Assembly (NCBI GenBank): GCA_003663535.1
Contig: QMUE01000011.1
Location: forward strand, 1-13,266
From: Thermococci archaeon
GTDB taxonomy: Archaea; Methanobacteriota_B; Thermococci; Thermococcales; Thermococcaceae
DNA length: 13,266 nt
Direction: 5' to 3'
A program made the translations under genes and the position numbers. Below the pieces are notes generated by a model. That model was given only the letters and a program-made list of their open reading frames with translations. It was not told the DNA's origin and searched no databases. This document shows, in pieces, positions 1 through 13,266 of this stretch. The first letter of the stretch is position 1. Each line of letters opens with the position of its first letter.

Positions 1-621
1 AAGGATGGTAAATTTACCGTACAGTATGAGCTCAATTTAACCAAACTCGGAAACAGAACAAACCAAATAATAGAACAGCTCGGTTTGAAGAGGTTAAATC
101 GAAAAATAACATTTATTACAAGGATCAATCTTAAAGGGAGCGTTTATGGAAGAGAAATAACCGAAAGCTTTGAACACAGCTCATCTCTAGTTAGGGACTC
201 CGGAGCTGGTCTTTACTACTTTACTAATGAAAAAGAAAGCATGCAAAAAGCAGTAATAGAAAAAGGCACAAAGAGGACGGCGGTGAGTATTGTTGGCTTG
301 CCCTTCTACGCCGATACTGCAAAGAAAGTGGCTCCAATATTAGCATTGCTATTCTTAACACCCCTTATAGGAGGAGTTTATACAATCAGGGCTCAGAGAC
401 CCAAGAATGAGTTCAAGGATCTGAGAGCTTACATAACGGAAGGGGCCCCAATCCACGTGGAGAAAAAGATAATTCTGGCCACAAAAGACGATCTAAAGAA
501 GACTTTTGATCTTTTGGATAAGCCGATCCTTCACTACAAGGAGGGTGAGGAGGACGTTTACACAATAATTGACGGCAACATAGCCTACGAATACAGACAT
601 AAAAATAACAAAAATAACTGA
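1..621 (+). CDS. DUF5305-like membrane-anchored protein (5'-truncated by window edge)
   Basis: The frame is open from base 1 with no convincing start, so this is the C-terminal about 206 residues of a longer protein. A TTG at 85 is the first start-like codon but has no ribosome binding site. The visible part begins with beta-rich sequence (KFTVQYELN...), passes a hydrophobic segment (about VAPILALLFLTPLIGGVYTI, encoded near 331-390) and ends in a soluble domain (ATKDDLKKTFDLLDKPILH... then DGNIAYEYR). The ending 'D.L...D.P.....Y.I.DG...Y.Y' matches what I know of archaeal DUF5305 proteins: an extracytoplasmic N-terminal region, one membrane helix and a small cytoplasmic domain. Function is unknown; in archaea such genes often sit by a type I signal peptidase gene, which cannot be checked here. 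The DUF assignment is from recall of the pattern. Confidence 0.75.
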   Translation, partial: KDGKFTVQYELNLTKLGNRTNQIIEQLGLKRLNRKITFITRINLKGSVYGREITESFEHSSSLVRDSGAGLYYFTNEKESMQKAVIEKGTKRTAVSIVGLPFYADTAKKVAPILALLFLTPLIGGVYTIRAQRPKNEFKDLRAYITEGAPIHVEKKIILATKDDLKKTFDLLDKPILHYKEGEEDVYTIIDGNIAYEYRHKNNKNN

Positions 622-656
622 TTTTTCTCCTCTTTTTTAAAATTTAGAAAATCAAA
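622..656. terminator. T-rich bidirectional termination region between convergent genes
   Basis: The 30-bp gap between the convergent DUF5305-like gene and the small membrane protein gene contains a plus-strand T tract (GATTTTTCTCCTCTTTTTT, about 620-638). On the minus strand, T-rich runs lie just after the stop codon of the opposing gene. Archaeal RNA polymerase terminates at such U-rich tracts without needing a hairpin. I see no stem-loop. Confidence 0.45.
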
Positions 657-1026
657 GAAAAGCAGTACTTATGCCCAAGATCAGTGCAAAAACAAACACC
701 ACCAATATCTCTACAATGATCGTCATCAGCCATGCTATTGTTGCTTTTATCCACTCCGTGTTAAATACTGTTTTTATAACCCAGATGTAGGCTATGATTC
801 CCAAAATCCATCCTATAACCGGCATCCATCCTGTAAGCAGGGCCAAAATTCCCCCGCCAACAACTGCTATCATGGATTTCCCAAGGTTAGCTCCTTCTAT
901 TCCGGCAAACTTTGCTCCAAGCATCAGGAAAAACCCTGCAATCACAAGAGCAATCAATATTGCTATCACTGCCATGAATCCCATTGCAGCAAAAAGTCCG
1001 GGAACAATTGGTGGCCCCATTGGCAT
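652..1026 (-). CDS. Small integral membrane protein of unknown function
   Basis: A 124-residue, strongly hydrophobic protein. It starts at ATG 1026 behind a good ribosome binding site (AAGGTGA, about 1032-1038). Four hydrophobic stretches are visible: about residues 10-37, 48-68, 70-86 and 98-121. The sequence is rich in Gly, Ala, Ile and Trp (GWMPVIGWILGIIAYIW) and has no catalytic motif. The N-terminus MPMGPPIVPG has no cleavable signal. It faces the DUF5305-like gene convergently and is divergent from the DUF63 gene, so it is probably a single-gene unit. I do not recognise a family. The antisense plus-strand frame at 794-1045 is a shadow. Confidence 0.8.
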   Translation of the reverse strand: MPMGPPIVPGLFAAMGFMAVIAILIALVIAGFFLMLGAKFAGIEGANLGKSMIAVVGGGILALLTGWMPVIGWILGIIAYIWVIKTVFNTEWIKATIAWLMTIIVEILVVFVFALILGISTAFL

Positions 1027-1133
1027 AATACTTCACCTTAACTGACTTATTAGCGATATTTTCTTATTAGCCTTTTCACTCTTGGGTAGAAAAAGCTTTA
1101 AGGGAGCAAAGGGAAGCCTTCTGGGGATGTAAA
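1027..1133. promoter_or_regulatory. Divergent promoter region, small membrane protein / DUF63
   Basis: The intergenic region separates two divergent starts. For the DUF63 gene, AAAAGCTTTAAG (1091-1102) resembles a Thermococcales BRE/TATA element, and GGGGATG (1123-1129) can serve as ribosome binding site for ATG 1134. For the minus-strand gene, CTAATAAG (complement of 1063-1070) is a TATA candidate at a reasonable distance from the AAGGTGA site. The word CTTATTAGC occurs twice (1046-1054 and 1063-1071), 17 bp apart. This may be TATA duplication or a small operator. Confidence 0.45.
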
Positions 1134-1925
1134 ATGGAATCAGTAGAGAGGTTTTTATGGGAGTATTTTATAGAACCGATGTACACGAGAGAGGGATATA
1201 ACCCTTACAATACCATTGTTTATGCGGTTATTTTGGGATTGGCTATAATCTACACATACAGGTGGATAATAAAGCCCCTCAAGATAAAGGTTGATGAAAA
1301 GCTCTTCTATGCCGTTACCCCAATGGTTGTCTTTGGAGCAACTGTTAGGGCACTGGTTGATGGAGGGGTTTTAGAGCCTCACCCCCTCATCTTGACTCCC
1401 GGGATATTCTTTACTGCATTTTTCTTGATCTTGCCGGCTCTCTTTGCAGATTCAAAGCTAAAAACTTATCCAAAAATAACTGTTGGATGGGGAACAATTT
1501 TAGCCTTCTATGCAAACTATCTTCTTGTAACAAATGCCAAAAGCTGGAGGCCATATGAGCTGACGCTTTTCTATACCATGGCCTTTTTCCTGCCGATTTT
1601 GGTTTATTATAAGTTTAGACCTTTTGAAAAGTTGTATCTCTTCCCTGTATTTGCCCACATCTTTGACATAGGCTCGACGGTGGTGGCCATCCATTATTAC
1701 GGCTACCGAGAAGTCCACTGGATTGAGAACATTCTGGTTCAAAAGTTCGGGGCGTTTGTTTATTACCCCTGGATAGTGTTCATATTGGTTGTCGTCTATT
1801 ACGGGTTGAGGTATTTAGTGCCCGATGAGGAAGAGAGGAGATTTTGGTATTTGGCAGTTTATATACTCGGATTGGGACCGGCGATAAGAGATCCGGCGCA
1901 GATGATTTTACAGCTTACAGGTTAA
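1134..1925 (+). CDS. DUF63 family integral membrane protein
   Basis: A 263-residue polytopic membrane protein with about seven hydrophobic segments (roughly residues 26-44, 60-78, 85-103, 116-132, 145-157, 168-186, 207-224 and a weaker one near 240-255). Motifs typical of archaeal DUF63 proteins are visible: the N-terminal FIEPMYTREGYNPYNTIVYA, then FGATVRALVDGGVL after the second helix, FAHIFDIGSTVVA in the middle, and GLGPAIRDPAQM at the C-terminus. The conserved charged or polar residues inside membrane segments (R, D, H) suggest a transport or membrane-enzyme role, but the family has no established function that I know of. ATG 1134 is preceded by GGGGATG. Family length is usual. The minus-strand frame 1500-1742 is a shadow. 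Confidence 0.85.
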   Translation: MESVERFLWEYFIEPMYTREGYNPYNTIVYAVILGLAIIYTYRWIIKPLKIKVDEKLFYAVTPMVVFGATVRALVDGGVLEPHPLILTPGIFFTAFFLILPALFADSKLKTYPKITVGWGTILAFYANYLLVTNAKSWRPYELTLFYTMAFFLPILVYYKFRPFEKLYLFPVFAHIFDIGSTVVAIHYYGYREVHWIENILVQKFGAFVYYPWIVFILVVVYYGLRYLVPDEEERRFWYLAVYILGLGPAIRDPAQMILQLTG

Positions 1926-1935
1926 TATCTTCCTT

Positions 1936-2004
1936 AATTTTTATAACTAATAACTGCATAATATACTCATGGAAGTATATTTAGGGACATCTGGGGGCGG
2001 GATA
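1936..2004 (+). promoter_or_regulatory. Promoter and translation start region of the HExxH gene pair
   Basis: TTTATAA at 1940-1946 is a clear TATA box. It places transcription start near 1968-1970, right at an in-frame ATG (1969). Two readings are possible: a leaderless transcript starting at ATG 1969, or a 35-nt leader with initiation at GTG 2005 behind the G-rich run GGGGGCGGGA (1993-2001). I favour GTG 2005 because it gives a normal signal peptide that aligns with the second paralogue from the first residue. Confidence 0.5.
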
Positions 2005-3672
2005 GTGAAAAAGCTTTCTTTAGCTATCTTCCTCTTATTGTTTCTTTCCACAGTTCCACAGTTTGCACTTTCACAAGAGGAACCGCAAGTAACGGTTGAG
2101 GTTAATCCGAATCTTGAATTGTTTGCTGTGGTTTATATTCTAGCTTTTAACGGGAGTGATCTGTTTATAGTTGCTCCTCAGGATTACATAAGTGATGTCT
2201 TAACTTACTTTGCTCCTTATGCGAATAGTGGGGCTGTAAGATTAATTAGGGATTTAATCCCTCAAAGTTTTTCGTACTATGTTCGTGATCGCTCGATACG
2301 TAAGTTTGCTAGGAACTTAGTGAAAATGCCTTATCTTGGGAACATGAGTGAAAGCGACCCTCTTCTAACGGAACCTTATAAGCAGCTGGCAAAATTTGCA
2401 AAGGAAAGCAACTTCATCCAGTTCTACAATGAGCATAAGGAGGTTTATGAAAAGGCTGTAACGCCCCTCAAGGAAGTACTGCCCAACGACATTCCGGAAA
2501 AGTTTGTCAAGTTCTTTGGATGGAGCTACACCAGCTATAAAGTGGAGCTCTCATATTCCCTATGGATACATCCCTATAGTGAATACACGAGAGATTCGGC
2601 AATATGCATAATGACGGCCCAAGGTGACCATTTAGTGCGGGGGATGGTGATGCTCCATGAGTTCACTCACCCTTATATAAACCGTTTAATGGATTCGCAT
2701 CCTAGAATTTTTGAAAATCTGACTTATTACGTGGATGAAGTCCAGAGGCAACTTCCCGCATGGACTTCACTGGATCCGGAGCCCTATTTGAATGAATACT
2801 ATTGGAATGAGCTTTTAACAGAATCCTTTGCCGTATATTTAGCGAAAACCTCTAACACTAGCCTGATGAAGATGGCAAGATACCGCGAACTTCAGGATTT
2901 GTCGCTGGGTTATTATTTGCTCGATGAAGTTGTCAGGGAGCTCAAAGCTTTTGAGCAAAGCAAAAAGCCAGGAGAGACTTTTTCAGATTACCTGCCAGTT
3001 TTAGTGAGTCACTTGAAGGGAATAGCCAACCCAGAGAATGTTGCATCTTATTTTAAGCGAAAAGTTCCCGTTACTCAGCTTTGGTTTTTTGATAGAGCTT
3101 ATTCCGCGGGAAGGATTGTTATTGTATATGGCTCTCAAAATCCTGATAAGAGGGGTAATGAGTATGATAAGGAAACTGCACTCAGGTTGAAAGAGCACCT
3201 AAGTGCTTTGTTCTCCACTATTTATGATATTTCACCTTCGATCATAATTAAGAGCGATAGGGAAGTAACAGCTGAGGATTTGAAAGAAAATTTAATTCTT
3301 GTTGGCGGGCCTGTTGCTAATAATCTCACAAAAAATGTTCAGGATAAGATGCCGATTAAGTTCATTCTGAATGGAACTTGGGGATTAAAGCGTGATCCGG
3401 ATGTAGTAGGAGAATTCTCAGCCTTTTTCTCTAGGGGCAATACTTTTGATGCCCTACCATTATCTGCTCCAATTCCGCAGGAGGCGTTTGGAGTTGTTGA
3501 GGTCATTAGAAATCCATGGAGTGACAAAAGCTTCATTCTCATTGTGGCTGGAGTTGACAGGTACAGTACAAGAAGGATGATAGAGAACGTAAAAATATTC
3601 TCTCCAAGTTATATAATTGAAGGGGATGAGTACATAGAAGCCGGATTTTACACTCAAACAGGGGGGATATAA
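2005..3672 (+). CDS. Secreted HExxH putative metallopeptidase, DUF4932-like (paralogue A)
   Basis: Numbering is from GTG 2005 (555 residues); an upstream in-frame ATG at 1969 would add 12 residues ahead of the signal peptide. Residues 1-24 (KKLSLAIFLLLFLSTVPQFALSQ) form a classical signal peptide. The middle holds HEFTH at 218-222 and, about 50 residues later, NELLTESFAVY with Glu273. Together these are a HExxH...E gluzincin-type zinc signature. The C-terminal 180 residues form a separate alpha/beta region with GRIVIVYGSQNPD and LKENLILVGGPVAN, which recalls cell-surface or S-layer-associated domains. It is followed 4 bp later by paralogue B, so the two are surely co-transcribed. The DUF4932 label is from recall. 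The metal signature is directly seen; substrate and activity are unknown. Location is extracellular or cell-surface. Confidence 0.8.
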   Translation: MKKLSLAIFLLLFLSTVPQFALSQEEPQVTVEVNPNLELFAVVYILAFNGSDLFIVAPQDYISDVLTYFAPYANSGAVRLIRDLIPQSFSYYVRDRSIRKFARNLVKMPYLGNMSESDPLLTEPYKQLAKFAKESNFIQFYNEHKEVYEKAVTPLKEVLPNDIPEKFVKFFGWSYTSYKVELSYSLWIHPYSEYTRDSAICIMTAQGDHLVRGMVMLHEFTHPYINRLMDSHPRIFENLTYYVDEVQRQLPAWTSLDPEPYLNEYYWNELLTESFAVYLAKTSNTSLMKMARYRELQDLSLGYYLLDEVVRELKAFEQSKKPGETFSDYLPVLVSHLKGIANPENVASYFKRKVPVTQLWFFDRAYSAGRIVIVYGSQNPDKRGNEYDKETALRLKEHLSALFSTIYDISPSIIIKSDREVTAEDLKENLILVGGPVANNLTKNVQDKMPIKFILNGTWGLKRDPDVVGEFSAFFSRGNTFDALPLSAPIPQEAFGVVEVIRNPWSDKSFILIVAGVDRYSTRRMIENVKIFSPSYIIEGDEYIEAGFYTQTGGI

Positions 3673-3676
3673 GAAA

Positions 3677-5329
3677 ATGAAAAAAGTCGCGGTATTCCTT
3701 GTGACATTAATGTTCCTCTCTTCACTCCCCTTGGGAGCAACTCAAGCTCAAGAGTCCCAAGTGACCGTGGAAGTAAATCCTAATTTAGAGCTCTTTTCAG
3801 TGGTTTATATTCTAGCGTTTAACGGGAGCGACCCGTTCATAATTGCCCCCCAGGATTACGTTCAGGACGTTCTAACGTACTTCGCTCCCTACAAAGAGCA
3901 TGAGGCAGTTAAATACATTAGAGAAGTTCTGGACGAGTCCCTTCCGTATTATTCCCGAGACAGCGCGATGATGGATTTGGGTGGCAGATTGGCACTGCTT
4001 GATTACCTCCCCAACGAAACAAACCTTGGAGACTTAAGGCCTTTGGCGGAATTCGCCAGCGAGAGCAATTTTATGGAATTCTACAAGGCTCACAAGGAGG
4101 ATTATCTTAAATACACCTCAAGCATAGCGCCCTACCTGGAAAATGTTCCAGAACTATACAGGGAGTTTTTCGGGTTTACTTATCAGGAGTACCGTGTTGA
4201 GCTGTCTTATTCAGTTAGAATTCACCCACATGCAATATTCCGAGAGGAGAGAGCATACTGTATTGGATATGCTATTCCGAGTAAATACAAGGCACAAATG
4301 TTCCAGCAGGTTGTCACAATATTTCACGAGCTTACACATCCACCCATTATGGACTTTCTTGGAGAAAATTTCGAGTTTTTCAAAAACAAAAGCTATTACC
4401 TAGACGAAGTCAGAAACCAGATGCCTGTGACCACTTCATACGATTACGGGCATTTTGGGTCATTCAGCAAGTATCTTAATGAAATCTTAACAGAAAGTCT
4501 CGCAGAGTACTTTGCTCTAAAAAGCGGTGTTCCAGAGGATTTTGTTAAATTCAGAAGCCTTCAACTGTCTACAGATTTGTATCTCATCCAAGATTTTCTC
4601 AGGGAGTATGAACACTTCGAGAAAACAAGGAAGGAGAATGAAACTCTGTTGGACTACGCCCCAATCATGGCCGAACACATGGAAAAATGGGCAACTCCGG
4701 AGAACATCAGCGAATACTTCAAAATGAGAACTCCAATCACAGGACTTTGGGCAGTGGACAGGATAAAATACATGGGAAAGGTCATCATTGTCTACGGCAC
4801 TCAAAACCCAGATAAGAGCGGAACAGAATACGATAGGGAGACTGCAGAGGATTACAAGAGAGGCCTTGAAAGATCTTTTATTTGGTTCTATGGGAGCAGT
4901 CCGGAAATAATAGTTAAAGCGGATGTAGATTTGACAGACGATGATTTGAAGGAAAACTTAATTCTCATTGGAGGCCCCGTGGCCAATAAAATCACCGGGG
5001 AACTTAATGATAAGCTCCCAATAACTTTCGTTCGGGATGAAAAGGGCTGGAGTCTAAAACGGAATCCAGGGGCTGTTAAAGACTTTCACGCTTTCTTAAT
5101 CACGAATGAAAACATCATAGAGCTTTCTTTGGACAGCACGATTCCCTATGATGGATCCATAGGGGTACTGCAGGCTATCAGGAACCCCTGGAATGAAAAG
5201 AACTTTATTATAGTGCTTGCAGGATTAACAAGATACGGAACAAGGAGTATTTCCAAGAACCAGGACTTTACGGCTAGTTACAAAATCTTTGGAAACAACT
5301 ACATAGAATTAGGGTTCTATAAACAGTGA
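3677..5329 (+). CDS. Secreted HExxH putative metallopeptidase, DUF4932-like (paralogue B)
   Basis: A 550-residue paralogue of the preceding gene with the same order of parts. It has a signal peptide at 1-24 (KKVAVFLVTLMFLSSLPLGATQAQ), the shared start of the mature protein (QVTVEVNPNLELFSVVYI), HELTH at 217-221 and NEILTESLAEY with Glu273. The C-terminal domain carries GKVIIVYGTQNPD and LKENLILIGGPVAN. Metal ligands are intact in both copies, so neither looks decayed. ATG 3677 follows the first stop by 4 bp, and its ribosome binding site (GGGGGGAT, 3661-3668) overlaps the end of paralogue A, which suggests translational coupling. Third-position base choice is visibly more G/C-rich than in paralogue A (for example GACCCGTTCATAATTGCC against GATCTGTTTATAGTTGCT), so the duplication is not recent. 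Confidence 0.8.
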   Translation: MKKVAVFLVTLMFLSSLPLGATQAQESQVTVEVNPNLELFSVVYILAFNGSDPFIIAPQDYVQDVLTYFAPYKEHEAVKYIREVLDESLPYYSRDSAMMDLGGRLALLDYLPNETNLGDLRPLAEFASESNFMEFYKAHKEDYLKYTSSIAPYLENVPELYREFFGFTYQEYRVELSYSVRIHPHAIFREERAYCIGYAIPSKYKAQMFQQVVTIFHELTHPPIMDFLGENFEFFKNKSYYLDEVRNQMPVTTSYDYGHFGSFSKYLNEILTESLAEYFALKSGVPEDFVKFRSLQLSTDLYLIQDFLREYEHFEKTRKENETLLDYAPIMAEHMEKWATPENISEYFKMRTPITGLWAVDRIKYMGKVIIVYGTQNPDKSGTEYDRETAEDYKRGLERSFIWFYGSSPEIIVKADVDLTDDDLKENLILIGGPVANKITGELNDKLPITFVRDEKGWSLKRNPGAVKDFHAFLITNENIIELSLDSTIPYDGSIGVLQAIRNPWNEKNFIIVLAGLTRYGTRSISKNQDFTASYKIFGNNYIELGFYKQ

Positions 5330-5378
5330 TATGAAGCTCCTGAGTTAAGGGTGGAAGATAGGTAAAGGTAAGTTAATC

Positions 5379-6428
5379 TCAAATATTTGCTACTCCCTTC
5401 TTAACTTTCTCCCCAACTTTTGAGTTAACATAGATGTCTAATGAGCACATATGAGCGAATACGTCTTCGAGGGTTATTGTTTCGTTTTGAAGGTCAACTA
5501 CTTCATAATTTGTCAGGATTGCAAGGATATCTTTTAGGCGATCTTGTTTAGTGTAAATTTCCAAATAAGTGAAACCGTTTTGAGAATAAACTTTAATCTT
5601 CTCTGCTATTCCGTTAAAGTTACTAGTTTCAACTTTACCCCTGAGTTTGACCAACAGCTTCCTCTCCATTTTTAAGGCCTGGAACTTTTCGATTAATTCT
5701 TTCGGCTTGCCCTCGGCAATTTTCTTCTTGTTGAAAATTAGAACTCTATCGCACAACGCTTCCGCCTCATTTAAATTGTGAGTAGTGAGTATTATCGTTG
5801 TCCCGAACTCTTTGGAGAGGTCTAAAATGGTATTCCACACTTCCCTTCTTGTAAAAACGTCGAGATAAACTGTTGGCTCATCAAGAATTAAAACTTCAGG
5901 CTGGAGTATTAACGGCAAAGCTAAGTACACTTTCTGCCTCATGCCTGCAGAAAGTTTTTGATACCACTCGTTTTTCTTATCCTTGAGATTCAAAAGCTCC
6001 AGAGCGTAGTTGATTCTCTTTTCAGCTTCAGCTTTAGGAATCCCCCAGAGTTCTGCAATAAACTTTAAGTTCTTTTCCACACTTACACGCCATTGAAATA
6101 AGCCAAACAAATCCCTCTCCCCACCAAAAATCGTGAATATTCTCCCCTTGATTTTATTATGCTCTTTTATCGAATCGTAACCATTAATGTAAAGATTACC
6201 CCGAGTCGGGATTACCAAGGCGTTGGCAATCTTACAAAAGGTTGTCTTTCCAGCACCATTGGGACCTAAAAGACCAAAAACCTCGCCCTCCTTAACTTTG
6301 AAATTTAAGTCAATTAGGGCAGGGATTTCTTCACGAGGAGTCTTGATAAAGTCCTTGAGGCTTTTCAAATCGAGCAGTGATTTTATCGGAGGCGGATAAA
6401 ACTTGGTCAAGCTAACAGACTCGATCAT
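5379..6428 (-). CDS. ABC-2 type transporter, ATP-binding subunit
   Basis: A 349-residue ATPase that would energise the permease encoded upstream in the same operon. Walker A GPNGAGKTT is at 55-63, signature LSAGM at 159-163 (LSGGQ variant), Walker B VLILDEP at 179-185, D-loop Leu-Asp near 189-190 and the switch His at 217. The Q-loop region reads FGGERDLFGLFQW instead of the usual PQ, a variant common in ABC-2 exporters. Residues about 1-40 carry an insertion before the core (YPPPIKSLLDLKSLKDFIKT). Residues 250-325 form the usual C-terminal accessory domain ending ITLEDVF. About 24 further residues follow; the last 13 or so are encoded across the left copy of a 21-bp direct repeat. ATG 6428 directly abuts the stop of the winged-helix gene. 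Substrate is unknown; context suggests export of, or self-protection from, the adjacent modified peptide. Confidence 0.93.
   Translation of the reverse strand: MIESVSLTKFYPPPIKSLLDLKSLKDFIKTPREEIPALIDLNFKVKEGEVFGLLGPNGAGKTTFCKIANALVIPTRGNLYINGYDSIKEHNKIKGRIFTIFGGERDLFGLFQWRVSVEKNLKFIAELWGIPKAEAEKRINYALELLNLKDKKNEWYQKLSAGMRQKVYLALPLILQPEVLILDEPTVYLDVFTRREVWNTILDLSKEFGTTIILTTHNLNEAEALCDRVLIFNKKKIAEGKPKELIEKFQALKMERKLLVKLRGKVETSNFNGIAEKIKVYSQNGFTYLEIYTKQDRLKDILAILTNYEVVDLQNETITLEDVFAHMCSLDIYVNSKVGEKVKKGVANI
5394..5414. repeat. Left copy of 21-bp perfect direct repeat (putative cassette boundary)
   Basis: These bases, beginning TCCCTTCTTAAC and ending CTCCCC, are identical to 11168-11188 in the same orientation. 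This copy lies inside the last codons of the ABC ATPase gene (frame G-E-K-V-K-K-G). The right copy lies at the end of the helicase gene in a different frame (G-R-K-L-R-R). Shared protein ancestry therefore cannot explain the identity. Read in the helicase frame, this copy is followed by GAG and then TAG (complement of 5390-5392), a stop at the same place as in the intact helicase. It looks like the displaced old end of that gene. Confidence 0.8.
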
Positions 6429-6704
6429 TTAAATCACCCGGATGACATAAGTTCTTCCTTTCTTCCTTCGTTCTATCAAACCTTTCTTTTCCAGCCCTTG
6501 AATAATCCTGCAGGCTTTGACTTTTCCAAACCTCTTGCTGAGCTCCTTTTGAGTAACACTCCCATTCTGGAGTATAAACTCCAAGACATCCTTTTCTAAT
6601 CCGCTTAATTTCATCTTGTACGCATACTCAAGATCAACTTCTACTCTCAGGAACAGTATCAGTTTTCCGTTCTCACAGTTTGCTTTTAAGAGGTGGGCCC
6701 TCAT
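6429..6704 (-). CDS. Small winged-helix DNA-binding protein, candidate operon regulator
   Basis: I place the start at ATG 6704 (91 residues) because GAGGTG (complement of 6712-6717) lies 7 nt ahead. A GTG at 6719 in the same frame would add five residues and overlap the permease gene by 4 bp, but it has no ribosome binding site of its own. The C-terminal two thirds read as a winged helix: LSGLEKDVLEFILQNGSVTQ (helices 1-2), KELSKRFGKVKACRIIQGLE (recognition helix), then KKGLIERRKKGRTYVIRVI (wing). This is MarR/ArsR-like in style, but no family is recognised with certainty. The N-terminal 30 residues form a beta-rich segment (KLILFLRVEVDLEY). Its position between permease and ATPase genes suggests it senses transporter status or the peptide and acts on the divergent promoter region. 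That role is inferred. Confidence 0.82.
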   Translation of the reverse strand: MRAHLLKANCENGKLILFLRVEVDLEYAYKMKLSGLEKDVLEFILQNGSVTQKELSKRFGKVKACRIIQGLEKKGLIERRKKGRTYVIRVI

Positions 6705-6715
6705 CTTATGACACC

Positions 6716-7531
6716 TCACATATGGCCCAAAGTTCCCAACTGTCTCGCCTTGTTAAAGCCCCACCTAAAAGTAAGGTACCCTAAGAGTAACATCACCCCT
6801 GTGATGACCAGCATGTTAACCAAGCTGGGCAGGATTTGTCCTAACGAATATCCACCACCCATTGTTAATCTGCCCATTTGGAGAATATATGTTTCCGGAT
6901 GGATTTTTGATAATGGTTGAAGCCATTTTGGTAGTGCTTCTGGGGGAAAGTATAAACCGCTTACAAGCTGGGCTGTAATGTTGAAGAACCAATTTAATGG
7001 GTCTTGCGTTGCTTTAGTAGCAATTCTAAAGCCTGCTGAAAACATGTCAAGGGCAAAGATTAGCAGGACGCCGCTTAAGATAACGATTGCAACGCCGAGG
7101 TTAAGGTGAATGGTCAATCCGAAAAAGAGGATGTAGATAACTGTTATTGCTAAGGTTAATCCCAAATTCCACAGAATTCGCCAAGCGTTAATCCCGATGA
7201 AGATTGCTGTTAATGATGCGGGTGAATTGTATAACACTGGAAATACCCTTCCCAAAACAAATGAAGAAATGCTGCCCCTTGGCAGGAAGACGAGGTTGTG
7301 GATTATTGAGCCAATTAAAAGATAGTCAAGGTAATTTGAAGTGCCATATTGGGAGATGTTGGCGTTAATTGTGATAAGCTTTGCAAAAATCCCGATAAAG
7401 AGGATGTTTAAGCCTAAACTTATGAATTGAAGGAGCAAGTCAAAGCGCCTTGAAAAGAAGACTTCCTTCTGGATGAAAATGAAAGCTTTGAGTACTTTAA
7501 CATTCCTGATTATTGCACTAATGCCCACCAC
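6716..7531 (-). CDS. ABC-2 type transporter, permease subunit
   Basis: A 271-residue membrane protein with about six transmembrane segments (roughly residues 30-53, 68-95, 103-122, 127-148, 150-172 and 235-255). It carries the typical ABC-2 region before the last helix: SGLYFPPEALPKWLQPLSKI followed by HPETYILQMGR. The N-terminal part (AFIFIQKEVFFSRRFDLL) is the usual cytoplasmic coupling helix. The start is GTG 7531 or the adjacent GTG 7528; AGTGATG (complement of about 7536-7542) is a plausible but weak ribosome binding site. It is the first gene of the operon, transcribed away from the peptide gene. It would form a dimer with two copies of the ATPase. Export of the modified peptide or removal of it from the membrane (immunity) is inferred from neighbours. 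Confidence 0.9.
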   Translation of the reverse strand: MVGISAIIRNVKVLKAFIFIQKEVFFSRRFDLLLQFISLGLNILFIGIFAKLITINANISQYGTSNYLDYLLIGSIIHNLVFLPRGSISSFVLGRVFPVLYNSPASLTAIFIGINAWRILWNLGLTLAITVIYILFFGLTIHLNLGVAIVILSGVLLIFALDMFSAGFRIATKATQDPLNWFFNITAQLVSGLYFPPEALPKWLQPLSKIHPETYILQMGRLTMGGGYSLGQILPSLVNMLVITGVMLLLGYLTFRWGFNKARQLGTLGHM

Positions 7532-7540
7532 TGCTCATCA

Positions 7541-7590
7541 CTCACTATTAAAAATCAGTGAGATTACTTATAAACATTGCTTTTTTTTTT
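7541..7590 (-). promoter_or_regulatory. Promoter of the ABC operon with adjacent A tract
   Basis: On the minus strand, TTTATAAG (complement of 7567-7574) is a good TATA box. It predicts transcription start near 7545, giving a leader of about 14 nt before GTG 7531. Immediately upstream is an uninterrupted run of ten A on this strand (T at 7581-7590), which may bend the DNA and separates this promoter from the repeat array that precedes the peptide gene. Confidence 0.55.
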
Positions 7591-7599
7591 CTCGTAGAT

Positions 7600-7686
7600 A
7601 GTTTCACTTCATTTATAAATTAGTTTCAGTAGTTTATAAATCAGTTGCAGTAAAACTTATTTATTGTTTCAACGAGAATATACCAT
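7600..7686 (+). repeat. Four helically phased GTTKCA repeats, candidate operator
   Basis: Four units begin at 7600, 7622, 7643 and 7665. Their GTTTCA, GTTTCA, GTTGCA and GTTTCA cores sit at 7601, 7623, 7644 and 7666, spacings of 22, 21 and 22 bp, close to two turns of B-DNA. In units 1 and 2 the core is followed about 10 bp later by TTTATAAAT; units 3 and 4 decay to TTATTTAT and AATATA. The array ends just ahead of the ribosome binding site of the peptide gene. It could bind a regulator side by side on one DNA face, overlapping the TATA boxes. An iteron-like role is less likely because no replication protein is present. Confidence 0.6.
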
Positions 7687-7704
7687 AAAAGACTTGGGGA
7701 GGTG
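7633..7704 (+). promoter_or_regulatory. Promoter and ribosome binding site of the peptide operon
   Basis: Candidate TATA boxes are TTTATAAAT at 7612-7620 and 7633-7641, and a weaker TTATTTAT at 7657-7664. The second would start transcription near 7662 and the third near 7686. GGAGGTG at 7698-7704 is a strong ribosome binding site. It fixes translation at GTG 7711 (7-nt gap from GGAGGT) and rules out the in-frame GTG at 7702, which overlaps the site itself. Confidence 0.6.
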
Positions 7705-7710
7705 GATGAT

Positions 7711-7935
7711 GTGGAGTTCAAGATTATCGAAAAAGGTTCTACAGAGGGAATTGCAGGGAACTTATCATGCACCTGTTATGCTGAGTCGGGTCTTTGTGGA
7801 GATGACTGTAGCTTATATTGTCCAGGGGTTTGCATACCTAAATGCATTGCCGTAATTATTCCAATGCTGGCTATCTGTATTGGGACGTATTGTGAATGCT
7901 ATGAGCAGTGTCAGCCTGATTGTGTTTGTTACTGA
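7711..7935 (+). CDS. Cysteine-rich RiPP precursor peptide (putative)
   Basis: A 74-residue peptide with a short Cys-free leader (residues 1-19, MEFKIIEKGSTEGIAGNLS) and a core holding all 13 cysteines: 20, 22, 29, 33, 37, 41, 45, 56, 61, 63, 67, 71 and 73. Five of them (29-45) recur every fourth residue, and C-x-C pairs open and close the core. A hydrophobic stretch (AVIIPMLAI) divides it into two Cys-rich arms, as in hairpin thioether peptides. The start is GTG 7711, set by GGAGGTG at 7698-7704. The next gene is a radical SAM/SPASM enzyme, the usual partner of such precursors. In known families these enzymes make Cys thioether crosslinks (sactipeptides, ranthipeptides); the leader ending 'EGIAGNLSCTC' loosely recalls clostridial Cys-rich bacteriocin precursors. 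An alternative is a metal-binding or iron-sulfur miniprotein. No identity to a named peptide is claimed. Confidence 0.8.
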   Translation: MEFKIIEKGSTEGIAGNLSCTCYAESGLCGDDCSLYCPGVCIPKCIAVIIPMLAICIGTYCECYEQCQPDCVCY

Positions 7936-8004
7936 ATTTTTACTTATATTTCTTTCTTAATTCTTAATCTTAACTTTATAAAAATTTAATATGGAGGTGA
8001 ATAC
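7936..8004 (+). promoter_or_regulatory. Intercistronic region: partial terminator, possible TATA, strong RBS
   Basis: After the peptide stop, the plus strand is T-rich (ATTTTTACTTATATTTCTTT, from 7936), able to cause partial termination. This would make more peptide message than enzyme message, a common arrangement in RiPP operons. TTTATAAAA at 7975-7983 resembles a TATA box but would start transcription at the ATG itself. GGAGGTGA at 7993-8000 is a near-perfect ribosome binding site for ATG 8005. Confidence 0.45.
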
Positions 8005-9372
8005 ATGTACAAAGTTTCAAGATATAACTTATTCTTCGAAGAGAATAACATGATATTACTGTTTAACAGTCTTAGAAACGTAGTAGCTAGATGTGATGCT
8101 GAAACAAAAGAAATCTTAGAAAATGAGACACTTGATAAATTGCCTTCAAACTTGTTAGATAAAATGGTTTCTGAGGGTGTAATAGTTGACGAAAAACTAA
8201 ATGAACTTAATGTTATTAGGTTTACAAGAATGATGCATTATGTTCACCTTATGCAAAATTTGAGTATTGGGTTGACATTAGTAATGACTTATTCTTGTAA
8301 CTTAGCGTGTCCCTATTGTTACGAGGGAGATAGAAAGGCCAAAGGGGGATTGTTAACTCCAAATAAGATCGAAACAATTTTGAAATTTGCAAAAAGCCAC
8401 AGACAGGGGGACAAAAAACCACTAATTTCAGTCAGTTTTTATGGTGGAGAACCTCTCCTAAATTGGAAAGGGTGTAGATACACATTAGAGCGGTTAGAAG
8501 AAATGAAAGAAGATGGAGAAATTCGAGATTATTCAACGGGTTTTATCACTAATGGAACGTTAATTAACTACGAGCTTATCGAAGCAATTAACGAATATAA
8601 TGTGAACTCTATGCAGATAACATTAGACGGTCCTAGAGAAGTTCATAATAAACGACGGATAAGGCCAAATGGTGAAGGAACTTTTGATGAAATAATTGAA
8701 AATATTAAACTATTGAAAAATGGGGTAAACAATGAAAAGTTTCACTTAGGTTTAAGAATAAACGTTGACAAAACTAACTTTGAAACAATACCTGAATTAC
8801 TTGAATTTCTAAAAAAGGAAGGCCTTGATGATATACCTATCTCTTACGGAATTGTTAGGGGAAACTTTCCCTATTGCCACTCTAATTGTGGGATATACTT
8901 CTCTGGAGTAGACCTCCAAAAAGCTCTTCCATACTTATGGAGAGAGGCATACAGAAGAGGTTTTAATGTTTGGACTAGACCTAACTTGCGATTTATTTAT
9001 TGTGGGTATGATCATCCATTCGGATACGTTATTGATCCAGAATTAAAGGTATATCCATGTTGGGAGATGGTTGGAATTGAGGAGTACCAAATTGGAGAAA
9101 TACAAGAAGACGGAAGTCTAAAAATATATCCTTTTTATTATGATGTGAAATCCCGGGATCCTACAGAATATGAAGAATGCAGAAAATGCAAGCTTTTGCC
9201 AGTTTGTATGGGAGGTTGTGCTGCAGAGTCAATAAGAAGAAACGGGCATCCTAATGGACCTGGGTGTGATATCAATAAATACATTTGGAAAGAGGGATTA
9301 AAGTTTTATTTGATGAAAAGATACTCTTATTTGTTTAGCCAAGATAATAAAAACAAAGAGAAAATGATTTGA
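8005..9372 (+). CDS. Radical SAM/SPASM peptide maturase
   Basis: A 455-residue cytoplasmic enzyme predicted to crosslink or otherwise modify the cysteine-rich peptide encoded just upstream. The radical SAM cluster motif is C98-NLA-C102-PY-C105; the SAM-binding GGEP is at 147-150; ITNGTLI and MQITLDGP follow in the TIM-barrel order usual for this superfamily. The C-terminal SPASM domain supplies seven cysteines: C333, C352, then C392-x2-C395-x5-C401-x3-C405 and C421, enough for two auxiliary 4Fe-4S clusters. Residues 1-85 form a separate N-terminal region (YNLFFEENNMILLFNSLRNV...) of the kind seen in peptide maturases; it may bind the leader. C291 and C295 form an extra pair in the linker. ATG 8005 has an excellent ribosome binding site. 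Peptide modification is well supported by family and context; the exact bond made is unknown. Confidence 0.93.
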   Translation: MYKVSRYNLFFEENNMILLFNSLRNVVARCDAETKEILENETLDKLPSNLLDKMVSEGVIVDEKLNELNVIRFTRMMHYVHLMQNLSIGLTLVMTYSCNLACPYCYEGDRKAKGGLLTPNKIETILKFAKSHRQGDKKPLISVSFYGGEPLLNWKGCRYTLERLEEMKEDGEIRDYSTGFITNGTLINYELIEAINEYNVNSMQITLDGPREVHNKRRIRPNGEGTFDEIIENIKLLKNGVNNEKFHLGLRINVDKTNFETIPELLEFLKKEGLDDIPISYGIVRGNFPYCHSNCGIYFSGVDLQKALPYLWREAYRRGFNVWTRPNLRFIYCGYDHPFGYVIDPELKVYPCWEMVGIEEYQIGEIQEDGSLKIYPFYYDVKSRDPTEYEECRKCKLLPVCMGGCAAESIRRNGHPNGPGCDINKYIWKEGLKFYLMKRYSYLFSQDNKNKEKMI

Positions 9373-9388
9373 AATAGGAGGGAGGATA

Positions 9389-11155
9389 ATGTCGAAGAGA
9401 AAGATGCTCTTTGCAGTTCTTGTACTCCTTATTCTTTTCGTTGGTTGGATAGCATGGGATACTTCTCCAGCTATGGAAAAACATAATATTCCTAAAGCAG
9501 AGAATTTAGAACTTCGTATTTTGTATCCAGAAAAACCAAGTGCAAAGGTGTTATATGGACCAGTTATAACAGAAGTTTTTAGGGATCTTTCCGCTAATTA
9601 TACCTATCACCCCTATACTGTTGTTGGAAATCTGAGTGCTTTAATTACACCCGATCTTGTTAAAATTAAGTGGAGTTTTTTGATTATGAACAGAAGCCAG
9701 GAAAATACAACGATTTACATTTTATCTCCAAACTTTGGCAACTTGAGCTTGGTAATTAAAGACCAACCAGTTAACTTATCAAAGCTGTCTCACTACTCGT
9801 TACCTTACTATGAAGCGAAGATACTGTTTCTGAACGTGAGCTATCCAAAAGACAAACCGATACAGGGAGTAATAGAATACGAAACAAGAACAAGTCTCCT
9901 ACTTGCTTACTTGCCCCCACTTTCCAGGCAATTTTTGGGGGGCTTTTATTTTCCACAAAACTATCCTCACGTGATATACTTTTCGCAAAACTTTGTTTTT
10001 TCAATATCTCCCGTGGGAATTCTTGGACCCTACTCTAATGGAACTGTTCTTGTTACCTTCCCTTCAAAATACGAGGTAAGGTCTGAATACCCCTTGAAAG
10101 TGGAGTATGTGAATGATAAGACAACTTTAAGGCTTGATATCTCCAAACTGGGAGGCTCTGTTTATATCTACGAAAGAGGCTTTTTCCAAGAAGCTGAATT
10201 CACCATGAATAACACCAAGGTAAAAGTTTATGTTCCAAAGAATACGATGTTAGGCTTTAGGGAACTATCAAATGTCACCATGAAAATAATAGAGAGCTAC
10301 ACAGAACTCCTAAAAATCGTCCCGTACTCTGAAATCAACGTAATTTTTTATCCAGATTTACCTTATGGAAATGGGGAGGAATTTGAGGATTTTGAAGAGA
10401 GAGGAGTTGCAATAGTTGGTATTCAAGGTAGTGTCGGGGTAGCGGACTTTCTATCAACACTTGGACATGAGGTTGCCCATGCATGGTTTGGAAGCTATAC
10501 TCATCTTGGAAAGATAGAAGAAAGTCTCGCCACCTATATGGCCATCAGTTTGGAAGATTCTACCAGGTTAGATTCAATTGAAGGGGATATACTGACTTAT
10601 TTTCCCATCTATGGAAAGCCGTTGGCTAAATCATATGAGGAGGGTATATCTAATCCAGATGTGAGGAATAGTGTTAGATACTATGGAGGTGCTTTCATCT
10701 TCCGTTCTCTGCAGTTTGTTCTTGGAAACGAGACCTTCTTTAATGGTTTAAGAGAACTTTTGAGGGGGTGTCATGGTAAAGAATGCAATTTAACGGACGT
10801 TCAAAACGTTTTCGAGAAAGTTAGTGGGCAGGACTTGGACTGGTTCTTCAAGGAATGGTTTTACACCCCAAAAGTGCCTGATTATGAAGTAGGAAACTTA
10901 AGTGTAACTCAGAGGGATGATAAATACTTCCTAACTTTTGAAATTGTTGACAAAAACAACTTCACAATGCCCCTCGAAATTGAGGTAATAACATCAAAAG
11001 AAAAACTCGTTAAGAAAGTTTGGATTAAAGAGAAAGCAAAGGTAATCTTTGAACTAAAAGATAAGCCCCTGAAAATAATCCTCGATCCAAATGAATGGAT
11101 AGTAAACGAGAACAAAAAATATAATATTGAAGGAATAGAGATAATAGTCGAGTAG
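9389..11155 (+). CDS. Membrane-anchored M1-like (gluzincin) metallopeptidase
   Basis: A 588-residue protein with an N-terminal signal anchor (residues about 7-23, LFAVLVLLILFVGWIAW) and a large extracytoplasmic part carrying 14 N-x-S/T sequons, fitting an exported, glycosylated archaeal protein. HEVAH is at 360-364, with WFG after it as in M1 peptidases. The third zinc ligand is probably Glu378 in EESLATY, aligned with NEGFATY of M1 enzymes, but the gap is 13 residues, not the usual 18. YYGGAF (431-436) matches the position of the M1 catalytic tyrosine, and GQDLDWFFKEWFYTPKVPDY (480-499) is a typical M1 ending. The GAMEN substrate motif is absent. ATG 9389 follows the radical SAM stop by 16 bp with AGGAGGGAGG between, so it is in the same operon. 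It may cleave the leader or mature peptide outside the membrane; this is inferred from context. Confidence 0.87.
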   Translation: MSKRKMLFAVLVLLILFVGWIAWDTSPAMEKHNIPKAENLELRILYPEKPSAKVLYGPVITEVFRDLSANYTYHPYTVVGNLSALITPDLVKIKWSFLIMNRSQENTTIYILSPNFGNLSLVIKDQPVNLSKLSHYSLPYYEAKILFLNVSYPKDKPIQGVIEYETRTSLLLAYLPPLSRQFLGGFYFPQNYPHVIYFSQNFVFSISPVGILGPYSNGTVLVTFPSKYEVRSEYPLKVEYVNDKTTLRLDISKLGGSVYIYERGFFQEAEFTMNNTKVKVYVPKNTMLGFRELSNVTMKIIESYTELLKIVPYSEINVIFYPDLPYGNGEEFEDFEERGVAIVGIQGSVGVADFLSTLGHEVAHAWFGSYTHLGKIEESLATYMAISLEDSTRLDSIEGDILTYFPIYGKPLAKSYEEGISNPDVRNSVRYYGGAFIFRSLQFVLGNETFFNGLRELLRGCHGKECNLTDVQNVFEKVSGQDLDWFFKEWFYTPKVPDYEVGNLSVTQRDDKYFLTFEIVDKNNFTMPLEIEVITSKEKLVKKVWIKEKAKVIFELKDKPLKIILDPNEWIVNENKKYNIEGIEIIVE

Positions 11156-11163
11156 TGGATTCT

Positions 11164-13266
11164 TTAATCCCTTCTTAACTTTCTCCCCTCTTCGAGCTCT
11201 CTTCTCAAAGTTCTTGCCTCGAACTCCGCTTTCTTTGCCCTAAACACCTTTGAAATCCTCTCAATAGCTTCGAGCTTCCTTATTATGCTGTCGAGCCATG
11301 TAAAAACGTCTCCCGGGTAGACCACAAGGGAATACTGTCTTCTGAAGTACTCCGCTATCTGGGTCGGGTGTTTTCCTTGTCTTCTGAGCTCGATTATAAG
11401 CGATGAAACCCTCTCCATGGCGTATTCAGTGCATTCCTCTTCCTCACACATGAAGAAGTCTTGGTAAATTAAAAACAGCTTATCCTGCACGTTTGGACTA
11501 ACCTCTGGCAGAACTTTTTCAAGCTCATCTAAAATCGAAGCAAAGCTTGGGGAAAAGATGTTGCTGCTTAGCCTTCCCCTAACGGCCCTTTCAAGCTCTC
11601 TCTGAACAACTCCGGAAAGATAAATGTTCTCAAATGGCAACAGCTTAATCGCAATCTCTTTTGGATGCCTTTTGAAGAGATTTTCCCTTATAAATTGAGC
11701 TTCATTTGGCAGTAAAAAGCTCATGCTCACGGCCCTTCCATATGGTGTAACGCTTACAAGTTTACCCCTTAACTTTACAAATTCAAACTCTTCGAGCTTT
11801 TCAAGAACTTTTTCGGCGCTTTGATTTGCACCCAAACATTTGTTTTGAACCTCCTCTACATCATCTAAACATGAAAAAACACATGAGTGGGCCAGAACCT
11901 GATCTTGCTCCATCTCATCACTCCACTCCACGTAAACGGGCTCTATTGGTGCGGTGAGGAGTTTAAATGCTATTTCGTCTTCACTTCCTTCCATTTGTGA
12001 GGAATACTTCCTTCCGGGTTCGACTATGAGATAGACTTTGCCCTTCTCATGGTATAGAGGCCTTCCCGCTCTCCCCAGCATCTGATGGAATTCCCTAACA
12101 CTTAACCATTTGTTGCCCATTGCGAGGCTTTCGAATATTACTTGAGATGCTGGAAAGTCGACACCGGCCCCTAATGCGGCTGTTGTTACAACTACATCAA
12201 GCATCTGGGCTTGAAACTCCATTTCGGTGAGTTTTCTTTGATGGTAGGGTAAACCGCTGTGATAAGGCTTTGCTTTCAAGCCTTTACTCGTTAAAAACGC
12301 CGCAAGTTCATGACACCTCTTTCTTGAGAATGTGAACACTATACTCTGTCCCTTAAACCCCTGAGGGGATTTCCTCATTGTTTCAGCCTTGCACAGCTGA
12401 GCCACATAGCGCCACTTCTCACTCTCATTTCTAGCTATAATGACGTGCCTTTCAAGTGCAACGGGCCTTTCATCGTATAGAACAAGCTTTAATCCAAGCT
12501 CTTTTGCGAGCTCTTGAGGGTTTCCAATGGTGGCACTAAGCCCAATAAACTGCGCGCTGGGATAGAGCTTTCTAAGCCTTGCAATAAAACCATCTAACCT
12601 CGTTCCTCTCTCTTCCTCGTCAAGCATGTGAATCTCATCTATGACGATAGTTCCAACGTTTCCTATTTTTCTTCCTGCCCTAAGGAGATAGTCAATGCCT
12701 TCATAAGTTCCAATAATTATGTCGGCATCTATTCCAGTGTCCACCACAACAAGTTCATCTTTTGTCTTTATTCTGCTCATTCCTACCCTTATGGCAACTT
12801 TAAGTTCCAATTTAGAGTATCTCCTCTTAAAATCTTCATATTTCTGATTTGCCAGAGCAACAAGGGGAACGAGAAAGAGAAGTTTTTTGCCATTGAGAGC
12901 CTTGGGAACTCCCGCGAGTTCCCCGATGAGAGTCTTTCCACTTGCTGTTGCAGAAACTACCAATAAGTTCTCTCCCTCAAGGAGGTCATTCTGCAGGGCT
13001 AAAACCTGAACAGGGAGAAGTTTTTCTACACCTTCTTCTTTTAAAACTCGCTTGAACTCCTCGGGAATGCGTGTCTCATCTATGGATAGCTCTTTAACCT
13101 TAATACGCTTTGGCTCCAGTTCGTCCCATTTCGTAACGTCTGGATTCTTTGTTGGATCAAAACGAGGATCAAAAATAGCCATTACCTTATCCAGGTCTCT
13201 AAATCTTTTAAGAAGTTTTTTTGCTTGATCAAACATTCCGAGACTTCTAAACCTGTAGCGGAGTTC
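11164..13266 (-). CDS. Ski2-like superfamily 2 DEAD/DEAH helicase (5' end beyond window)
   Basis: An ATP-dependent nucleic acid helicase. Numbering is from ATG 13236 (690 residues), but the frame stays open to the window edge (ELRYRFRSLG before this Met), and that Met has no clear ribosome binding site, so the true start is probably outside. Motifs in order: Q77 in LLPVQVLAL, motif I SATASGKT 95-102, motif Ib-like GTYEGIDYLL near 176-185, motif II DEIH 200-203, motif III SAT 234-236, YHSGLP 325-330, TTAALGAGVDFPA 351-363 and motif VI QMLGRAGRP 385-393. Two Cys groups (HSCVFSCL...NKC and MCEEEEC) lie in the C-terminal half. The arrangement fits the archaeal helicase group associated with DUF5814, from recall; a role in RNA or DNA processing is not determined. 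It is convergent with the peptidase gene with an 8-bp gap. Its last codons (GRKLRR) lie in the right copy of the 21-bp repeat. Confidence 0.9.
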   Translation of the reverse strand, partial: ELRYRFRSLGMFDQAKKLLKRFRDLDKVMAIFDPRFDPTKNPDVTKWDELEPKRIKVKELSIDETRIPEEFKRVLKEEGVEKLLPVQVLALQNDLLEGENLLVVSATASGKTLIGELAGVPKALNGKKLLFLVPLVALANQKYEDFKRRYSKLELKVAIRVGMSRIKTKDELVVVDTGIDADIIIGTYEGIDYLLRAGRKIGNVGTIVIDEIHMLDEEERGTRLDGFIARLRKLYPSAQFIGLSATIGNPQELAKELGLKLVLYDERPVALERHVIIARNESEKWRYVAQLCKAETMRKSPQGFKGQSIVFTFSRKRCHELAAFLTSKGLKAKPYHSGLPYHQRKLTEMEFQAQMLDVVVTTAALGAGVDFPASQVIFESLAMGNKWLSVREFHQMLGRAGRPLYHEKGKVYLIVEPGRKYSSQMEGSEDEIAFKLLTAPIEPVYVEWSDEMEQDQVLAHSCVFSCLDDVEEVQNKCLGANQSAEKVLEKLEEFEFVKLRGKLVSVTPYGRAVSMSFLLPNEAQFIRENLFKRHPKEIAIKLLPFENIYLSGVVQRELERAVRGRLSSNIFSPSFASILDELEKVLPEVSPNVQDKLFLIYQDFFMCEEEECTEYAMERVSSLIIELRRQGKHPTQIAEYFRRQYSLVVYPGDVFTWLDSIIRKLEAIERISKVFRAKKAEFEARTLRRELEEGRKLRRD
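11168..11188. repeat. Right copy of 21-bp perfect direct repeat (helicase 3' end)
   Basis: Identical to 5394-5414. On the minus strand it encodes the helicase residues GRKLRR and the first two bases of the final Asp codon; the last base of that codon and the stop TAA lie just outside the repeat, on the cassette side. If the cassette was inserted here, these last bases come from the cassette and restore an almost unchanged helicase C-terminus (RRD instead of RRE). Confidence 0.8.

Follow-up and report, generated by a model that had tools for sequence, protein, structure and literature searches.

The DNA considered here is a 13,266-nucleotide stretch (the window; contig QMUE01000011.1, assembly GCA_003663535.1) from a Thermococci archaeon of the Thermococcaceae, whose genome (G000) is available as 300 contigs and is 78% complete. 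Three closely spaced plus-strand genes encode a short Cys-rich peptide (7711..7935), a radical SAM/SPASM peptide maturase (8005..9372) and an M1-like HExxH metallopeptidase (9389..11155), with gaps of 69 bp and 16 bp between them. The original prediction, made from the letters alone, had read these open reading frames (ORFs) as an operon for a ribosomally synthesized and post-translationally modified peptide (RiPP), and all three are present as described. The unit, taken to start at 7711, was drawn too narrowly: the island also includes a divergent block of ABC transporter and winged-helix (HTH) genes (5379-7531), the promoter region in between (7532-7710), and probably two genes for DUF4932 proteins (1969-5329). 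A three-gene view thus missed the ABC/HTH/promoter frame, the exchange of cassettes within it and an empty site in related genomes.

The precursor gene, here called type A, has a GTG start at 7711 with GGAGGTG directly 5' of it, a start supported by its homologues, which begin at the same codon, and a stop at 7933-7935. The 74-aa product contains 13 Cys, none within the first 17 residues, in agreement with the Cys-free leader that had been proposed; at the mean Cys frequency of 1.04% in 12 window proteins, at least 13 Cys in 74 residues has p ~1e-12. By reading, the Cys spacing of the core is irregular, with several CxC and CxxxC. The peptide matches no Pfam or NCBIfam family and, modelled alone, yields no confident fold (pLDDT 44). 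Genome search and locus reading turned up related precursors in six other Thermococcaceae genomes, and sequence and profile searches found more in a protein collection. The genome search gave matches in 14 of 94 family genomes at E up to 10, four of them below 1e-10, and weak matches were judged by locus reading, which confirmed those in G086 and G060 and added one in G047 at another place. In an alignment of 12 precursors, the window's included, the leader (consensus MEFxIIExGSxExxAGN; F3, E7, G9, S10, E12, G16 and N17 invariant) is kept and the core is hypervariable, differing in Cys pattern and ranging from 15 residues (in P0123, whose 32-aa row is possibly incomplete) to more than 50. The alignment excludes P0126, which by eye has the leader and an apparently frame-shifted core. 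In the protein collection, precursors P0124 and P0125 match maturases P0008 and P0006, respectively, in the length of the longest contig (8341 and 3154), which suggests that the pairs are linked.

The maturase (455 aa) carries the radical SAM motif CNLACPYC (CxxxCxxC; C98/C102/C105), conserved in 60 aligned sequences, and the seven SPASM Cys that had been noted (C333, C352, C392, C395, C401, C405, C421), which are invariant in the same sequences apart from C395, kept in at least 90%. It matches PF04055 (79.7 bits) and TIGR04085 (60.3, cut-off 27), and falls under the cut-off of the Pfam SPASM family PF13186 (17.6, cut-off 21.5). Its best solved relative by sequence is the thioether-forming maturase 5wgg/5why (E 2.7e-26, 20-22% identity), which the predicted fold also matches across residues 5-441, including an N-terminal RRE-like domain (residues about 1-85) for which there is no Pfam match. 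TigE, SuiB and SkfB are further matches in the VIA-align listing, which leaves room for families outside it. An intact maturase (at least 53% identity) occurs in six of the 94 genomes, the window's own included (G000, G078, G008, G086, G047, G061); the G060 gene is broken into pieces, and G074 retains a C-terminal remnant, at which no precursor was seen. A precursor lies directly 5' of the maturase in all seven loci with a readable gene (six intact, one broken), so that a check over the family genomes for maturases that never stand beside the peptide left the operon unrefuted. In a 79-row tree, the G078 maturase has a near-identical counterpart in Pyrococcus woesei (protein P0005). Outside the family, no type A maturase was found among 115 genomes of the phylum at E 1e-50 or better, the only relatives being 30-35% identical and confined to two class-mates (G113, G114); a named-genome search returned one distant Bacteroidales locus only, and a plasmid search 69 records, every one below 60% identity. 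The two class-mates have several of these relatives, often in tandem (L150-L162), and L150 also contains repeated CPP-containing ORFs of 32-59 aa.

The consistent pairing, the conserved leader with its variable core, and the radical SAM/SPASM fold with an RRE-like domain bear out the RiPP operon reading, and sequence and model together make it quite probable that the operon makes a RiPP through leader-guided radical SAM modification of the Cys-rich core. Cys thioether crosslinks are a somewhat better than even guess for the chemistry. Alternatively, the peptide could be an intracellular Cys-rich metal or Fe-S binder, with the maturase making another change (epimerisation, a C-C bond or a Cys-unrelated step). 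The 13 Cys with their CxC and CxxxC spacings would suit a metal peptide, and no solved relative fixes the chemistry, 5why/5wgg, TigE, SuiB and SkfB all being matches; however, the leader/core pattern and the RRE-like domain favour a processed RiPP, and the divergent ABC transporter and anchored peptidases favour a product outside the cell, making this alternative unlikely.

Several named systems resemble parts of the operon. The closest named model for the type A maturase is CefB of the CefA/CefB system (NF038108/NF038107), at 352.7 bits, far short of the cut-off of 600. In another Thermococcaceae genome (G047), the promoter element seen here is followed by a true CefA-like precursor (50.9 bits, cut-off 30). 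By contrast, neither the window precursor nor its G078 relative has an NCBIfam match, and the window precursor lacks a core with Cys at every fifth position and possesses another leader. The Clo7bot maturase (TIGR04334) is the second named model (249.2 bits, below the cut-off of 600), with annotated relatives at 32% identity on Paraclostridium plasmids, but here too the window precursor has no NCBIfam counterpart. The structure 5wgg/5why, which we take to be CteB, the maturase of the SCIFF system, is nearest by both sequence and fold, N-terminal domain included; the SCIFF maturase model TIGR03974 scores 109.9 bits (cut-off 425), and the likeness concerns the enzyme. The proposal of a new class was too strong for the enzyme family, which is of a known kind; the precursor family is unnamed in Pfam and NCBIfam.

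The divergent block on the minus strand consists of an ABC-2 type permease, weakly DrrB-like (6716..7531), a MarR/TrmB-like winged-helix protein that is a candidate regulator (6429..6719), and a DrrA-like ABC transporter ATPase, identified in Pfam/NCBIfam searches (5379..6428). The permease is a candidate exporter or immunity transporter. The block adjoins the precursor in five of the seven type A loci (G000, G086, G047, G061, G060). The permease family is present in 28 of the 94 genomes and divides mainly into two groups, one at about 83-100% identity and the other at about 60%. A radical SAM gene lies within 6.2 kb, in the fetched stretch, of 22 of the 26 intact copies (240 codons or more), a count weakened by the profile's having been built from some of these loci; the others are L115 and L135, near contig ends, and L120 and L130. 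A hand count by BLAST only placed a radical SAM gene within 10 kb of 19 of the 26 permeases, against a rough expectation of 1.1% per locus. The best named relatives of the ABC pair, both below cut-off, are the drug exporters DrrA/DrrB, which raises the possibility of an ordinary drug-efflux unit that is a common neighbour by chance, as would also fit L120 and L130. The frequency of radical SAM neighbours, and a promoter between the ABC genes and the cassette that is common to several cassette types, render this quite improbable.

This promoter region (7532..7710) contains a 20-bp direct repeat, a candidate operator/TATA, whose first copy (TTTATAAATTAGTTTCAGTA) lies at 7612..7631 on the plus strand and whose second (7633-7652) forms part of a 28-bp promoter element (7633..7660, plus strand); the repeat pattern has two matches, against 0.02 expected by shuffling. 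From permease to precursor, the region aligns over cassettes of types A, B and C, with at most one deviating sequence of 12 in 84 of the 159 well-filled columns. As a search pattern allowing three mismatches, the 28-base element finds 23 sites in 17 of the 94 genomes, all with two mismatches or fewer, and its reversed control finds none. Downstream of 18 of the 21 readable sites there are precursors, radical SAM genes, azole genes or relics: type A in G000, G008, G047, G060, G078 and G086; type B in G074 and G078, and decayed on contig C123 of the window's own genome; type C in G023 and G047, and as a relic, by eye, in G008; other radical SAM genes in G001, G082, G068, G093 and G055 (contig C7); and an azole cluster in G078. 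Two sites end with their contig (G055 C6, G085), and the C6 and C7 sites of G055, having the same sequence, may be one locus. On contig C123 (L141, L184), the second promoter copy is accompanied by an ATPase reading frame, the decayed type B precursor, a DUF4932 gene and a radical SAM fragment of 266 aa.

The divergent ABC/HTH block and promoter thus recur before unrelated cassettes, among them types A and B, the CefA-like type C, cassettes with other radical SAM genes, and the SagBCD azole cluster. Type B (G078, G074) has Gly-rich precursor-like ORFs, and type C is found in G047, source of the CefA-like peptide, and G023. Type D (L126-L134) combines Cys/Asp-rich peptides with an MFKKLN-type leader and the 60% ABC pair; neither an HTH gene nor the promoter element was found at these loci. 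Its radical SAM enzyme (480-492 aa) is present in eight of nine loci (not L130) and, in the one tested, is nearest PapB (288.9 bits, cut-off 340). In the 79-row tree, in which some long-branch joins around B and D are possibly false and C comprises two rows, maturases A, B, C and D each fall into a well-supported group of their own; as they stand behind related transporters, the transporter family is common to unrelated maturases. The azole cluster of G078 (L048:14522-19447, L185) encodes, in order, a CCCCGGGG peptide, an ABC ATPase, a 257-aa protein that matches nothing in NCBIfam, and SagC, SagD and SagB, all three above their NCBIfam cut-offs. It lies behind the same promoter element, with an 84%-identical ATPase, and shares with type A the frame alone, the SagBCD (TOMM) chemistry being unrelated. 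In G078, three such promoters occur within about 12 kb, with azole, A and B cassettes in tandem.

Comparison of loci reveals abrupt changes in divergence along the island. Between G060 and G047, nucleotide identity (150-bp windows) is 83-100% over the ABC/HTH/promoter part, 46-66% from the precursor onward (one gapped window at 73%), without counterpart across the M1 gene, which G047 lacks, and again 70-99% in the DUF4932 gene (86-99% in the first six windows), against a purQ background of 81%. G078 and G008 belong to different genera, yet their maturases have a synonymous divergence (dS) of 0.007 and M1 residues 1-425 a dS of 0.018 (both at 98.5-99.8% amino acid identity), compared with a precursor dS of 0.22 and only 61% amino acid identity over M1 residues 501-588, four masked residues being counted as mismatches. 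Positive selection on the G008/G078 precursor was considered and dropped, as the dS contrast with the maturase indicates a separate recombination history. Among 14 M1 proteins, identity falls to 8-20% over residues 1-355 in many pairs and is 67-100% over residues 434-500, while L147 and L148 have the reverse pattern (99% over 356-433, 76% over 434-500). Since identity jumps both ways along the protein, the alignments point to a recombination seam near residue 434, at the start of the conserved 3' part of the gene (10688..11155, plus strand, residues 434-588), a pattern that different constraint alone would not explain. The cassettes show recombination across genera, and one seam lies within the M1 gene. 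Inheritance of whole islands, with differences arising from gene-specific constraint, could account for the window/G086 pair, in which the ABC and HTH genes (77-90%) are close to the flanks (DUF63 80%, helicase 85%). For G078/G008 it was rejected on the breaks in dS and M1 identity, which constraint cannot yield, and the separate A-D maturase clades behind related transporters, with a promoter also common to A-C, make it very improbable in general.

The M1-like protein (588 aa) matches PF01433 (38.0 bits, cut-off 27.7), with HEVAH at 360, 14 N-glycosylation sequons and, by reading, one N-terminal hydrophobic stretch as anchor, in line with the exported HExxH peptidase that had been described. 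M1 exopeptidases usually possess HExxH-x18-E and GxMEN motifs. The window protein, by reading, has HEVAH-x13-E378 and no GxMEN, so aminopeptidase activity is doubtful and not to be assumed; a PDB sequence search gave weak aminopeptidase matches only. Its role as a dedicated operon member was weakened: it is the third gene in six of seven type A loci, but a DUF4932 protein takes that place in one, and M1 homologues are far more widespread than the maturase. DUF4932 proteins accompany both type A and type B cassettes. The window encodes two DUF4932/S_layer_C HExxH proteins on the plus strand, the first at 1969..3672 (ORF start 1969; the likelier start is GTG 2005, before a signal-like stretch) and the second at 3677..5329, 92.5% identical to a type B island protein in G074.

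An empty site is found in G083 and G074. In G083, window positions 1-1927 (95%) are followed by 82 bp and then by 9380-11568 (98%). The 82 bp partly resemble window 1935-1997, and the missing block is therefore placed at about 1998..9379, with 1928-1997 surviving in diverged form; it holds both DUF4932 genes, the ABC/HTH block, the precursor and the maturase. The M1 gene there follows DUF63, just behind sequence like that 5' of the first DUF4932 gene. G074 is arranged likewise, with M1 cut at residue 522; in G083 it is intact. Because G086, of another genus, has ABC, precursor, maturase and M1 genes between the same neighbours (DUF63 and helicase), loss of the block is likelier than recent gain, as judged from these sequences. 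In G074, 110-121 bp of the M1 gene recur at 100% in three places (L144 near 8250, L054 near 6450, L146 near 8430), two of which split the apparently ancestral DUF63-M1-helicase locus, as if by a chromosomal rearrangement with its breakpoint inside M1.

These sites bear on what the peptidases do. Position, topology and co-occurrence suggest that the ABC transporter exports the product or gives immunity and that the peptidases act outside the cell. The product may, as had been proposed, be heat-resistant and an antagonist. The M1/DUF4932 proteins might be immunity or counter-peptide proteins rather than maturation proteases, a possibility to which we give somewhat less than an even chance. M1 is kept without the rest of the island at the empty site, behind the diverged left promoter region (intact in G083, truncated at 522 in G074); M1 (G075) and DUF4932 (G043) lie behind the promoter element with no radical SAM gene in 19 kb; and the N-terminal two thirds of M1 are hypervariable. 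The third position of M1 in six of seven type A operons is equally compatible with maturation. Since both peptidases are found apart from any maturase, either behind the shared promoter or where the island is missing, immunity is about as likely as leader cleavage.

In the mechanism proposed for the window, the 17-residue leader would be bound by the RRE-like domain of the maturase, which would then modify the Cys-rich core, Cys thioether crosslinks being the likeliest outcome; removal of the leader would follow, with the likeliest cleavage site just behind the conserved Gly-Asn. The HTH protein would control transporter and operon via the shared repeat-bearing promoter, the DrrAB-like transporter would export the product and/or protect the producer, and the M1/DUF4932 metallopeptidases would act on the product outside the membrane, as leader peptidase or in self-protection. 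The whole would be one swappable cassette, the frame staying and the biosynthetic genes changing. More broadly, we give roughly even credence to a standardised Thermococcaceae RiPP slot, in which one promoter/operator, HTH regulator and ABC transporter serve chemically unrelated cassettes (several radical SAM types, SagBCD azole). Recombination at the promoter and at the conserved 3' end of genes for exported peptidases would exchange these cassettes among species and genera. Such a slot would evolve fast and act as a weapon or in recognition, and the orphan peptidases it leaves behind would be resistance genes. A number of observations weigh against the mechanism and cassette proposed for the window. 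In G060 the type A operon is broken, and G074 has a remnant of it; G008 keeps the ATPase alone beside its operon, permease and HTH gene being missing; in G078 these two genes stand next to the B cassette, at the operon's opposite end; and the G047 ATPase reads in two overlapping frames. The G061 locus escapes the three-mismatch pattern, although its promoter region aligns. Five sites have a radical SAM gene only (G001, G082, G068, G093, G055), and a RiPP role there is presumed; three have none, being followed by DUF4932 in G043, M1 in G075 and another ABC transporter in G088. M1 homologues occur in 48 of the 94 genomes, against six with an intact maturase.

The nearest evolutionary parallel is the VARTIG modules, hypervariable Thermococcales islands that recombine between species, with a GN motif proposed as cleavage site (PMC8416519). 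The motif matches the Gly-Asn of the type A leader. VARTIG are, however, Ig-domain proteins, and in the main text of that paper the terms ‘radical’, ‘peptidase’ and ‘ABC transporter’ do not occur. Their marker is a large Ig-domain protein, arCOG07710, and no Ig family was found among the Pfam matches of ten window proteins. For the kinds of RiPP treated in PMC12144867, haloarchaeal lanthipeptides are given, in the portion consulted, as the sole experimentally validated archaeal examples. Genome mining there already reported sacti/ranthipeptide-type clusters in archaea, mostly Euryarchaeota, and may have included Thermococcaceae loci without analysing them. A literature search, mostly at record level, found no published account of a Thermococcales RiPP locus, and the precursor family, the common frame and exchange among unrelated cassettes were not found in print, including the accessible parts of PMC12144867, PMC8416519, PMC12713403 and PMC4603692. 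From a precursor/maturase pair of hyperthermophilic origin one would obtain heat-stable enzymes for peptide modification as well as a product that can be tested. More importantly, a promoter, regulator and transporter common to interchangeable cassettes offer a handle on how these archaea may fight or recognise one another. With the 28-base element, such loci can be located in different genera even when their chemistry is not known, and the seams of recombination and the empty sites open gain and loss to direct testing.

Further small ORFs accompany radical SAM genes at other loci. Behind the same promoter, L170 and L179 (G068, G093) have Ala/Val-rich small ORFs (MEYIPPAGGE/MSYVPPVGGD) followed by a radical SAM gene, possibly another RiPP type, and L163 and L174 (G001, G082) have small ORFs MDIKVEEMFKIGEFELLKLGGD/MDVKVEETFKVGDFELLKLGGD followed by a radical SAM protein of 365-399 aa. 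In G018 (L136:11313-11629), short ORFs MEKPEYELPKV and MEKSKYEPPKV, with Cys near the C-terminus, precede a radical SAM gene that is located near a 60%-type ABC pair.

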